Shown one piece after another: positions 1,126 to 4,299 of a DNA stretch of 28,418 bases. Every line of letters starts with the position of its first letter. Positions within the stretch are counted from its first letter, which is position 1. A model generated the notes under the pieces. That model made no database searches and was not told where the DNA came from. It saw only the letters and a list, made by a program, of their open reading frames with translations. The stretch spans positions 1 through 28,418 of the IMG/VR virus record IMGVR_UViG_3300032132_000036. The stretch is one strand, 5' to 3'. Source of the DNA: a virus. The translations under genes were made by a program, and so were the position numbers.

Positions 1126-3054
1126 TCACGTTTTCCTCGCTGCCATGGGCATCCAGACACCATCCTGGTGCTTAAATACCATGTCGGTCTTCTCCAGGCG
1201 TTGCATCACCTGGTAGAATAATGACCTGCCGACGTCGAATTCCTCCTTGGCTCTGGACTGCCATTCGCTCGATGTCAGGCCGTCACGATGCAGCAGGTCG
1301 AATATCTGTTTGTCGCTGCACTTCTTCTTCCTGCCTGGCTGCCGTATCCCCTCCATGTCCAGGTCGCCGCATGGCTTGAGTTGGGGGAAATCCCAGCGCA
1401 GGCCAAAGGGAGGGAGGGCAGGAAAGGCACGCAGGATTGTCTCGCAGATGTAGGCATCTTCCTCCTGGTGTTCCGACAGGATGGCTATTGCGTCAGGGTC
1501 ACGCGCCAATACGCCGCTGCCGCTCATCCTATCAATGGCGAATTTGCTACCCTGGGCGCCCTTGCTGAAATGATGGGCGAAGATGGTGGCGGCCTCTGAT
1601 TGCACGGCCAATGCCTCAAACTCATTCATAAGGTCGGCCATTTCGCTGGCATCATTCTCGGAGCGTTTGCCCAGTAGCTTGTAGATAGGGTCGAAAATCA
1701 GCAGGCTGAAGTCCCTCTCCTCGATGGCCCGCTCTAAAATTGGCCTTAAAACGGTCATATCAGCCGCCTGGCCGCGTAAGTTCAGGACATGGAGGCGCGA
1801 GGCATCTTTGCACTTGCGGGCCTTTAGAATGGCCTCCATGCGTTGCCTGAAGTTAAACTCCTGCAACTCAAAATTGATGTAGAGCGCATTCCCTGGGTTG
1901 GTCTGGAAGTCCCACCACTTGCCGCCTGTGGCCACAGCAGCGGCCAAATCCATCAGCGACCAGGTTTTGCGGCCTTTGCTGGTTCCTCCCACAATCATCT
2001 TGCCGGCCTTGTACAGCACGCCGTCGATGACCTGTTGAGGCACAACCATGGGCGTGGTTTGCAGGTCGGAATAGCACTTGATGACCAGGCCGGCAGGGGT
2101 TTCGTCAGGTTCGACGGGTTTATCGGCTGTGCGAGCCATTGGGGCAGCCAAGGCCAGCCCTGACTTCAAGGCGCTGCTGCCTGCGCTTTTAAGCCAATCG
2201 TTTGCGTCCTTGATGCCGTCAGGCACCTTGACCTTGAAAACGTCTCCTGTGGCCATTTCTGCCACCTGGCTGGCCCATTTGGCGCCTGCCTCGTCATTCT
2301 GTGGCCATATGTAAACCTTTTGGCCTGGATGCAGTCGCCCCTCCAGCTTTCTGGCATTGGATGCGCCCCTGGTAATCATGCAGGCGTGCAGTTCCGACTG
2401 CCAAGCGCCGTTGCCGTAGCCTTGGGAATCCATGAAAGCCATTGCATCCCATTGACTCTCGAAAACGTGGAGGTTGTCGGCGTCATGGCTGCCGATCAAC
2501 CATGGTTGATTGCCGCCGCCTGTGATGCGCCAGCCTGACTCTGTGCGAAGGTGCATTCCTTGATATGCGCCGCCCTCGTTGAAGATGGGGAAAGCTATTG
2601 ATTCGCCAACCAGGCCAGCCAGGCCGTTCTCGATGATGCCAACCAGCAGCGTCTTGGAGTAGCCGCGCCAGGTGGCCAGATGGGCCAGGGTTTCAGGATT
2701 GCCTGCAAGACGTTCAACGGCCTGGTGCCACTCGCCAGGGTCGGGCATCTTACCTATGCTGACGGTTGTGGGTTGGGCAGGTTTCGGCAGGCCGGCCATA
2801 TTCTCGTAATGGGTCAGAGCCTCCTTTGTGTCGCAGTTGTGAAGGGCTTGCAGGAAATCCAGTTCATCGCCTCCCTGGCCTGTTGCAAAGTCCTTCCAAT
2901 GCCAACCTTTGTCGTCCTGGTAGATGCCCCAGGAAGGGTTGTTGTCCTTGCGTAATGGAGAACAGCAAAGTTTTTTGGCATAGGCGCCCAGCCCCATGGC
3001 TCGGAGCAGGCCAGGCAGCGGCAGTCGTGCCTTCAGTTCGTCAATTGTTGCCAT
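1126..3054 (-). CDS. Primase-helicase: Zn-finger/TOPRIM-like primase region fused to a RepA-like AAA ATPase
   Basis: A 642-residue replication protein. Residues 25-70 look like a degenerate CHC2-type zinc finger (CCSPLRKDNNPSWGIY). Residues about 195-260 are TOPRIM-like, with an acidic residue in FESQWDAMAF and PQNDEAG as the DxD-like part. Residues about 345-500 form a RepA/RecA-like ATPase with Walker A GGTSKGRKT (356-364), Walker B LLIFDP (451-456) and a sensor-like AHHFSKG (493-499). The last 60 residues look like a winged helix (SDKQIFDLLHRDGLTSSEW). The expected role is to prime and unwind phage DNA. No DNA polymerase is present, so the host polymerase would extend the primers. The start codon ATG 3052-3054 lies inside the 3' end of the methyltransferase (22-bp overlap). 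The iteron-like region follows it. Confidence 0.92.
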   Translation of the reverse strand: MATIDELKARLPLPGLLRAMGLGAYAKKLCCSPLRKDNNPSWGIYQDDKGWHWKDFATGQGGDELDFLQALHNCDTKEALTHYENMAGLPKPAQPTTVSIGKMPDPGEWHQAVERLAGNPETLAHLATWRGYSKTLLVGIIENGLAGLVGESIAFPIFNEGGAYQGMHLRTESGWRITGGGNQPWLIGSHDADNLHVFESQWDAMAFMDSQGYGNGAWQSELHACMITRGASNARKLEGRLHPGQKVYIWPQNDEAGAKWASQVAEMATGDVFKVKVPDGIKDANDWLKSAGSSALKSGLALAAPMARTADKPVEPDETPAGLVIKCYSDLQTTPMVVPQQVIDGVLYKAGKMIVGGTSKGRKTWSLMDLAAAVATGGKWWDFQTNPGNALYINFELQEFNFRQRMEAILKARKCKDASRLHVLNLRGQAADMTVLRPILERAIEERDFSLLIFDPIYKLLGKRSENDASEMADLMNEFEALAVQSEAATIFAHHFSKGAQGSKFAIDRMSGSGVLARDPDAIAILSEHQEEDAYICETILRAFPALPPFGLRWDFPQLKPCGDLDMEGIRQPGRKKKCSDKQIFDLLHRDGLTSSEWQSRAKEEFDVGRSLFYQVMQRLEKTDMVFKHQDGVWMPMAARKT

Positions 3055-4016
3055 AGCGTTGTGAATGCCTTTGCTGCTGTTTGTGGCACGACTCCATTTC
3101 CTAAAAGCCTCAACCTGTCCACTCGGTTGGTAGTTGCGTCCGGCCTGGATCCAGGCCCATCAGTTGCTCCACCCAGTTGGGAGACAGTTTGCCGCTTGCC
3201 TTCAAATCGTTCAGGTCGCGCCCCAGGCACTTCTGGTTGCTGTGAGTTGCTGTCCTCACTCCCTCCACATGGTCGCTGGCCTGCGGCGTTCCCCACGTCT
3301 GCACCTGGCTTCCCAATCTCGGAAACGTCAGGCCGTGGCTTGTCTGGTATCCTGTCTGGTTCTGCGCCTCCGGCGTTGCCCACCGTTCGGGGTTCTTCCC
3401 ATCCGTGCTGGGGTTGCCCTGGGCCGGCTGGCCATGTCTCATCCAGTTTTTGCTGCCTCCCCACTCCAGAAAAGTCCCGCCGCCCCTCTCTCCTGGCGTG
3501 CATGGAGTAGGCCAACCAGAAAAGCCGTTTTCTCCTGTGTGTTGCGCCAACTTCCTCCGCGCTAAATAATCCTGCCGCGTAGCTGTAACCCAATTGGTCC
3601 AGGTCGTTGAAAACGTCTTTAATCCCAAGGGACAAGTGTCCTTCGACATTTTCGCAGAACACAAATCGGGGCTGACAAGCGGCAATTCCTGCTGCGATAT
3701 GCGGCCACAGGTGGCGCTCGTCTGCCTCTCCTTTTCTTTGTCCTGCGCTGCTGAATGGTTGGCAGGGATAACCGGCAAGCATGATGCCCACTCGGCCGTG
3801 AAAGTCTGCGTATGGGAAGGTCTTAACATCCGTCCACACAGGCGCCGCAGCCATTTCTCCCGCTTCAATCTTTGCAACCAGGTTCGCTGCGGCGAATGCT
3901 TCCCTCTCCACATAAGCGATTGGCCGCAGGCGAATGCCTGCTCGTTCAAGTCCAAGCTCGATGCCGCCGTAGCCTGTGCAGAGGGACAGGCAAGTAAGTT
4001 GTTCGGGATTATCCAC
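3033..4016 (-). CDS. Cytosine-C5 DNA methyltransferase
   Basis: A 327-residue m5C methyltransferase. Motif I is SLCTGYGGIELGLERAG (11-27). Motif IV is AGYPCQPFSSAGQRKG with catalytic Cys85. Motif VI is FCENVEGH. Motif VIII is GATHRRKRLFWLA (158-169). Motifs IX-X are RLRLLGNGVVPQTAAKAF at the C-terminus. The segment between motifs VIII and IX (about 130 residues, where target recognition normally lies) is low-complexity, polar and rich in G, R, E, P and D. The same DNA read one base later spells a different recognisable sequence (see the 3110-3514 entry). The start is GTG 4014-4016 with GAGG about 10 bases upstream, overlapping the DnaA-like gene by 8 bases. No restriction nuclease partner is visible, so self-protection against host restriction is the likely role. 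Confidence 0.95.
   Translation of the reverse strand: MDNPEQLTCLSLCTGYGGIELGLERAGIRLRPIAYVEREAFAAANLVAKIEAGEMAAAPVWTDVKTFPYADFHGRVGIMLAGYPCQPFSSAGQRKGEADERHLWPHIAAGIAACQPRFVFCENVEGHLSLGIKDVFNDLDQLGYSYAAGLFSAEEVGATHRRKRLFWLAYSMHARREGRRDFSGVGRQQKLDETWPAGPGQPQHGWEEPRTVGNAGGAEPDRIPDKPRPDVSEIGKPGADVGNAAGQRPCGGSEDSNSQQPEVPGARPERFEGKRQTVSQLGGATDGPGSRPDATTNRVDRLRLLGNGVVPQTAAKAFTTLWQQLTN
3110..3514 (-). other. Overlapping second reading frame inside the methyltransferase variable region
   Basis: In the +1 frame relative to the methyltransferase, from about 3514 to a TGA at 3110, the DNA encodes 134 residues with WPTPCTPGERGGG, then WATPEAQNQTG, WGTPQASDHVEG and finally KLSPNWVEQLMGLDPGRTQ. Spaced W-x-TP motifs followed by K-L-x-P-x-W-V-E-x-L-M-G are, from memory, characteristic of the variable and C-terminal region of another lineage of phage cytosine methyltransferase-like proteins. 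The frame is open further upstream to 4195 but that part reads as noise. So this segment is either an alternative TRD reached by frameshifting, or a relic of frame switching in evolution. It has no obvious start codon of its own at the point where similarity begins. Confidence 0.45.
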
Positions 4017-4017
4017 A
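4009..4017 (+). promoter_or_regulatory. Perfect DnaA-box consensus TTATCCACA
   Basis: TTATCCACA, the canonical DnaA-box 9-mer, sits across the end of the DnaA-like gene and the GTG start of the methyltransferase. By chance about 0.2 exact copies are expected on both strands of a window this size, so one copy is only suggestive. Its place beside a DnaA domain IV gene makes it worth recording as a possible binding or autoregulatory site. Confidence 0.35.
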
Positions 4018-4299
4018 AACCACTTGCCTCAATGTTGCGCGTTCCTTGGCCAGTTTGGCGTCCTGCTGGCATAAATCCTCGACACGTTGGTGCGCGTAGA
4101 CTGTGCTTGTGTGATGCCGGTTGAATGCCTTGCCCACCGCTGCACAGGAATGCGGTTGCTCGTAGGCGATGGACATGGCCAGCAGTCGCGGCCAACTGAT
4201 TGGCCAGGGGCCGCGCCTGGGCTGTGTCAACTGTTCCTCGTCCAGGCCGAAATGCTTGGCCGTTCGTTTCAATATCTGTTCAGGGGTTGGTTTTCGCAT
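4009..4299 (-). CDS. Stand-alone DnaA domain IV-like DNA-binding protein
   Basis: A 96-residue protein. Residues 30-78 match the helix-turn-helix DNA-binding domain IV of the bacterial initiator DnaA. PISWPRLLAMSIAYEQ corresponds to the R-P-R-x-x-A-M-x-x-A helix. SCAAVGKAFNRHHTSTVYAH corresponds to the L-x-x-I-G-x-x-F-G-R-D-H-S-T-V-x-H signature, with one extra residue in the HHTSTV part. There is no AAA domain, so it cannot act alone as a replicative initiator. It may bind DnaA-box-like sites in the phage origin, or compete with host DnaA. A perfect TTATCCACA lies at 4009-4017, at its own 3' end. The ATG at 4297-4299 overlaps the nuclease gene upstream by 20 bases. Confidence 0.85.
   Translation of the reverse strand: MRKPTPEQILKRTAKHFGLDEEQLTQPRRGPWPISWPRLLAMSIAYEQPHSCAAVGKAFNRHHTSTVYAHQRVEDLCQQDAKLAKERATLRQVVCG

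Follow-up and report, generated by a model that had tools for sequence, protein, structure and literature searches.

Near-full-length overlap of two conserved reading frames in a phage C5-cytosine DNA methyltransferase gene

The methyltransferase gene of the virus studied here, an IMG/VR record of 28,418 bases (hereafter the window), forms an overlapping, or overprinted, pair with a second reading frame, as its +1 frame is open beyond chance and both frames are under selection. This dual coding extends along nearly the whole length of the gene, and both frames are kept in many viruses. Comparison of the sequences indicates that the frame 0 product (alpha) and the +1 product (beta) very probably make up a two-chain C5-cytosine methyltransferase encoded by one stretch of DNA, with beta recognising the target. 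Alpha would be the catalytic chain, with motifs I–VIII and X, and beta the chain in which an N-terminal region and a conserved helix precede a row of exchangeable W-x-T-P cassettes and a motif-IX-like segment. Translation of both chains would depend on the choice of start codon at a single ribosome-binding site, after which they would assemble as alpha-beta, with the cassettes and motif IX of beta serving as the target-recognition part. If the cassettes and motif IX do recognise the target, exchange of cassettes would alter target sites or add new ones, and the phage would likely benefit through protection of its DNA from host restriction. That beta is translated, and that it has this role, we infer from the sequences.

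Evidence for dual coding

The features of the locus are listed in Table 1. The +1 frame is free of stops from 4195 to 3110, and so spans the whole methyltransferase gene up to the start of motif X. The first-pass annotation had noticed the peptides WPTPCTP, WATPEAQ, WGTPQASD and KLSPNWVEQLMG, and these are indeed found in +1 with respect to the methyltransferase ORF, at 3514, 3382, 3295 and 3190, respectively, in a frame that ends where it had been placed, at 3110. It had limited the double-frame region to 3110–3514; the overlap there is real, but these limits are too narrow, and confinement of the overlap to them is ruled out by conservation of the +1 frame across the entire gene. Overprinting, one of the explanations it offered, is strongly supported by the codon shuffles and selection tests described below, over a region more than twice the length proposed.

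Table 1. Features of the overlapping methyltransferase frames in the window.
Feature	Position	Strand	Remarks
Alpha: predicted C5-cytosine DNA methyltransferase large chain	3033..4016	-	Frame 0, 327 aa, GTG start; motifs I–VIII and X, without motif IX
Beta: overprinted +1-frame ORF	3110..4018	-	302 aa, TTG start preceding the alpha GTG by 2 bases; ends with TGA at 3112-3110
Overlapping start site TTGTGG	4013..4018	-	Beta TTG 4018-4016, alpha GTG 4016-4014; ATGTGG in most relatives
Alpha motif I (LSLCTGYGGIELG)	3951..3989	-	
Alpha motif IV, catalytic PCQ (YPCQPFS)	3750..3770	-	Invariant in aligned alpha proteins
Alpha motif VI (FCENV)	3645..3659	-	
Alpha motif VIII (RRKRLF)	3519..3536	-	Contains the CTTTTC run proposed as a frameshift site
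Alpha motif X (RVDRLRLLGNGVVPQ)	3081..3125	-	Spans the beta stop and continues just beyond it
Beta N-terminal region (MWIIPK...SLMWRSKPS...TWLRRLKR in relatives)	3704..4018	-	Conserved in aligned betas; overlaps alpha motifs I–IV
Beta helix, residues 132-160 (W..WVT..RQ.Y..R)	3539..3625	-	pLDDT 77-87 over residues 141-160; W140, R154 and K156 at least 90% conserved
Beta W-x-T-P cassette 1 (WPTPCTPGERGG...)	3383..3514	-	
Beta W-x-T-P cassette 2 (WATPEAQNQTGYQ...)	3296..3382	-	Similar unit in L028
Beta W-x-T-P cassette 3 (WGTPQASDHVEG...SNQKCLGRDL)	3191..3295	-	Resembles recurrent cassette type 1 (24 units, ordinal positions 0-3)
Beta motif-IX-like segment LSPNWVEQLMGLDPGR (relatives: LNPNWVEQLMGLPVGW)	3140..3187	-	L, P, L, M and G invariant in aligned betas

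Searched with the +1 product, IMG/VR yielded full-length relatives of beta at no fewer than 188 viral loci, so that the lack of homologues named beforehand as evidence against the +1 frame is the opposite of what was seen. Eighty of the 188 were fetched (relatives are referred to below by L numbers), and in these each frame is matched almost from end to end, with beta at a constant frame offset from alpha. Most of the fetched loci had been picked by +1 similarity; the unbiased part of the sample consists of relatives reached through frame 0 alone, which have the same two-frame pattern, and of a second survey of 79 distinct loci chosen on the frame 0 profile alone. Members with a GC content as low as 0.45 were found.

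The openness of the +1 frame was compared with that of genes in which synonymous codons had been permuted, keeping the frame 0 protein and the codon usage. The window gene has 0 stops in the +1 frame against 4.7 expected, and the frame was opened in 0 of 1000 shuffles. Among 73 relatives, three +1 stops were seen against 490 expected, with the lowest of 1000 summed shuffles at 445, and the frame thus stays open in the close relatives in which stops had been suggested as a sign against it. The +2 frame of the same 73 loci is near expectation (1182 stops seen, 1274 expected). In the frame 0 survey the longest +1 run has P ≤ 0.01 at 69 of the 79 loci and P ≤ 0.05 at 74, and +1 stops are as numerous as the shuffles predict in ordinary C5 methyltransferases that hold motifs IX and X in frame.

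Conservation of synonymous sites, the check recommended by the first-pass annotation, gave an agreeing picture. In close pairs, change at sites that are synonymous in frame 0 and not in +1 was compared with change at sites synonymous in both (dSN/dSS), giving for the catalytic part 0.39 (pairs of 93–99.5% identity) and 0.25 (85–93%), and for the variable part 0.31 and 0.30, values that are rough, as the sites synonymous in both frames are few (about 190–1070 per class) and the pairs share ancestry and are not independent. A fictitious +1 frame in the flanking genes of the same pairs gave 1.09 and 1.15. Third codon positions in the 85–93% class changed at 0.161 in the catalytic part, compared with 0.417 in the flanking genes. 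In the variable part of the closest pairs, frame 0 is weakly constrained (dNN/dSN 0.84). Sites that are synonymous in frame 0 are held back by the +1 frame, and both frames are under purifying selection, which the flanking genes do not mirror.

The two starts overlap. At 67 of 76 loci the beta start precedes that of alpha by 2 bases, as ATGTG, GTGTG or TTGTG, and at the remaining nine beta has an ATG located 7 or 10 bases downstream of where alpha starts; an earlier beta start is absent from 55 of the 76. Beta begins with ATG at 64 loci, GTG at 10 and TTG at 2, and alpha with GTG at 68 and ATG at 8, the prevalence of GTG in alpha being what an overlap with the beta ATG requires. The three exceptional +1 stops are those of L013, L020 and L033, at codon 106, and L183 is a similar case at codon 107. 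All four are followed, after three bases, by an in-frame ATG restart (TAA AAA ATG or TAA AAT ATG) at the end of the N-terminal region, so that beta is there divided at the linker joining its N- and C-terminal parts.

The two predicted chains

Alpha matches Pfam PF00145 (E 1.9e-27) over residues 8–172 only, and its AlphaFold2 model aligns with M.HhaI at Z 19.3 over 198 residues, corresponding to the large domain of C5 enzymes. With motifs I–VIII, the catalytic PCQ and this fold, alpha is identified from sequence and model as a C5-cytosine DNA methyltransferase. Residues 211–291 have pLDDT under 50 and are unstructured in the model, while the C-terminal helices of motif X have high pLDDT. Frame 0 also codes through the cassette region, in a part unstructured in the model, and it is in +1 that the W-x-T-P units are conserved. 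PADLOC assigned alpha to cytosine methylases through its catalytic part only (within residues 4–185 among the matches listed). Frame 0 had been thought to retain motifs I–VIII together with IX and X; motifs I–VIII and X are present, but the likeness to motif IX belongs to the +1-frame KLSPNWVEQLMG. In the frame 0 survey a motif-IX-like peptide occurs in +1 at 67 of 79 loci and in frame 0 at none. A single-chain C5-cytosine DNA methyltransferase was rejected on the absence of IX from frame 0 at all 79 surveyed loci and on the unstructured residues 211–291.

The 53 aligned +1 proteins matched no Pfam or NCBIfam family consistently, and PADLOC matched nothing to beta. All 53 match phrog_1008, the window beta with E 2.4e-17 (about 2e-16 in another search). 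This family also matches the frame 0 motif X, through a different part of its profile. The profile is a composite of beta-type sequence and motif X, found in separate frames in the window, and the family name, "DNA methyltransferase", is silent on the overlap. Bacterial genomes searched with the beta alignment, using one short pattern, gave three loci only. Conserved positions in beta include the start MWI.P, W37, R38, W140, R154 and the C-terminal L.P.....LMG. The beta model has a mean pLDDT of 58, with confident prediction of a helical N-terminal region (about 72–92 over residues 11–80), of helix 132–160 and of the C-terminal segment, and low values between. Foldseek found nothing for it at E ≤ 0.001 and VIA-align no row at Z ≥ 5, results that exclude nothing given how weak the model is.

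The C-terminal segment of beta is motif-IX-like, and it is assigned to motif IX on its matrix score, spacing and position. When a matrix built solely from ordinary C5 methyltransferases was scored on all beta 16-mers, the LNPNWVEQLMG segment was the top 16-mer in 70 of 75 betas, with a mean of 7.1 vs −19.9 (SD 5.6) elsewhere. The window segment is degenerate (LDPGR ending) and ranks second. Profiles of the segment searched against PDB and Pfam found no C5 methyltransferase at significance.

The number of W-x-T-P units varies up to six per beta, the window having three, and some cassettes recur at many loci and at differing ordinal positions. Loci with catalytic parts 93–99% identical carry the cassette sets [0] (L056), [7,25,0] (L060), [7,25,0,2] (L054) and [0,1] (L006). 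Cassettes are gained, lost and swapped between loci, and this variation resembles exchange of target-recognition units, a role that would by analogy suit beta; beta most likely supplies the part of the enzyme that recognises the DNA target. The conjecture that target recognition is swapped fits the swapping of cassettes among loci. In the multispecific C5 methyltransferases of SPbeta-type phages, motifs VIII and IX are separated by several small target-recognition units. The W-x-T-P cassettes are comparable to these, but the SPbeta units share the reading frame of the catalytic motifs, whereas the cassettes are in +1 and double-coded.

Among more distant relatives, a +1 ORF of this kind, with the cassettes or the motif, occurs in phages that infect Xanthomonas, Acinetobacter, Paenibacillus, Lacticaseibacillus and Salmonella, as well as in one human faecal phage and on a Methanomethylovorans plasmid. 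In the mycobacteriophages Phanphagia (gp65/66), Firecracker (gp6/5) and AvatarAhPeg (gp79/78), L199–L201, motifs I–VIII are in the first ORF and the cassettes, IX and X in the overlapping +1 ORF. In a Streptomyces platensis plasmid and in phage Darolandstone, IX and X are read in frame 0 with the cassettes remaining in +1, and in these Streptomyces members the phrog_1008 match is divided between the frames. The window has IX in +1 and X in frame 0. The cassettes are thus in +1 in every member read, and IX and X are in either frame depending on lineage, so the past frame switching that had been suggested did happen to motifs IX and X but not to the W-x-T-P cassettes. A two-chain enzyme permits IX and X to change chains; a single-chain enzyme does not. 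On balance, we favour the view that specificity in this large phage family evolves by the swapping of ready-made double-coding cassettes, each of which would have to stay open in both frames, with IX and X able to pass between the chains.

Alternative explanations and known two-chain enzymes

It is scarcely credible that the open +1 frame is a product of composition or codon usage, is untranslated, and shows similarity as a mere shadow of the conservation of alpha. High-GC relatives are expected to have fewer +1 stops in any case (2.7 in L091), but members extend down to the low GC noted above, the codon shuffles preserve codon usage and still predict hundreds of stops, and ordinary methyltransferases sit at their expected number. 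The constraint on sites synonymous in frame 0 is missing from the flanking-gene controls, and the conserved starts and the stop-restarts also speak against this reading; chance or composition as the cause is ruled out by the shuffles and the flank controls. It is also very unlikely, if less so, that a programmed frameshift fuses the catalytic part of alpha to the C-terminal part of beta in one enzyme. Such a fusion would unite motifs I–VIII, the cassettes and IX in a single chain, and the CTTTTC run to which the first-pass annotation had pointed is indeed present near the junction, at 3519–3524; it is not conserved, however, occurring at that place in one of the 75 genes compared, and a programmed ribosomal frameshift gene was rejected for want of a conserved slippery site. 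Beta moreover has its own conserved start and a conserved N-terminal region over motifs I–IV, both needless in a fusion, and the product in the window would be without X.

A less remote alternative, which we nevertheless regard as unlikely, is that beta is a translated overlapping protein and not a subunit of the enzyme; it could, for instance, have arisen atop the methyltransferase as an anti-restriction or regulatory protein. The lack of any fold or Pfam match for beta would agree with this, as would an N-terminal region over motifs I–IV that resembles nothing known. Against it, the motif-IX-like segment is in beta and none is in alpha, the mycobacteriophage betas hold IX and X in one chain, and the Streptomyces members place the motif-IX-like segment in alpha beside X.

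M.EcoHK31I is a two-polypeptide C5 methyltransferase (YGGCCR) with a small chain read from an alternative frame inside the gene for the large chain, as would be the case in the window and its relatives. Both have motifs I–VIII and X on one chain and IX on the other, the window fitting this division with a motif IX set by matrix, spacing and position and not by a significant profile match. In M.EcoHK31I the large chain carries motifs I–VIII and X and a predicted target-recognition domain, and the small chain IX only (PMC3404938), whereas in the window recognition would fall to exchangeable cassettes in beta. Unlike in M.EcoHK31I, the window beta overlaps nearly all of alpha, shares a common start site with it and belongs to a family found in many phages. 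By analogy the window enzyme most likely works like M.EcoHK31I, a likeness drawn from the division of motifs. The second chain of M.AquI has part of the variable region together with IX and X (PMC3404938), and the mycobacteriophage members L199–L201 fit this type. The window was not assigned to it, as IX and X are not together on the second chain and X stays in alpha, and it differs also in that its chains overlap by about 900 bases. No open-access paper describing the phage overlap was found, most subscription papers lying outside the search.

Genomic setting and significance

Upstream of alpha lie a protein with a DnaA C-terminal domain (PF08299) and a DUF5843 protein, and downstream a primase-helicase-like protein. 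The first of these, at 4009–4299 (minus strand), is a stand-alone protein of 96 aa that contains little beyond the DnaA C-terminal DNA-binding domain (E 2.7e-11), and the 3' end of its ORF overlaps the alpha start. The primase-helicase-like ORF (3054..1126) starts within the last alpha codons, with an overlap at 3033–3054 (minus strand), so that alpha overlaps other coding sequence at either end. None of these three adjoining proteins was recognised as a restriction enzyme, and the methyltransferase is likely an orphan that protects phage DNA.

In some records, among them those of PhiXhv-28, Bloom, Phanphagia and Firecracker, both frames are already annotated as methyltransferases, without comment. 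In L096 (1493–2659) and L111 (1181–2272) the annotated CDS is the beta frame and the alpha frame is unannotated, the CDS being named a cytosine-specific methyltransferase in one and a hypothetical protein in the other. Phanphagia has a further DNA methylase gene, gp71 (L199:3264–3636), near the split gp65/gp66. Separately, the ordinary C5 methyltransferases of L104 (1192–2631) and of L218 and L219 (from 1501), with IX and X in frame, have +1 runs of 142–152 codons that exceed all 300 codon shuffles. In L104 the run covers motifs IV–VIII and reads LSDILEDNVPEKYFLSQEK. These runs are possibly a second, partial case of double coding.

To our knowledge, bacteria and phages offer few long overlaps on the same strand in which selection acts on both products. 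Here about 300 codons do double duty in a family that extends over many phages and plasmids, so that hundreds of natural variants are available for study of what double coding costs and how it arose. Annotation of phage methyltransferases often chooses one frame, and half of the enzyme is then lost; alpha cloned alone may yield an inactive or unspecific protein. The family would also offer a natural two-chain enzyme with exchangeable recognition units.
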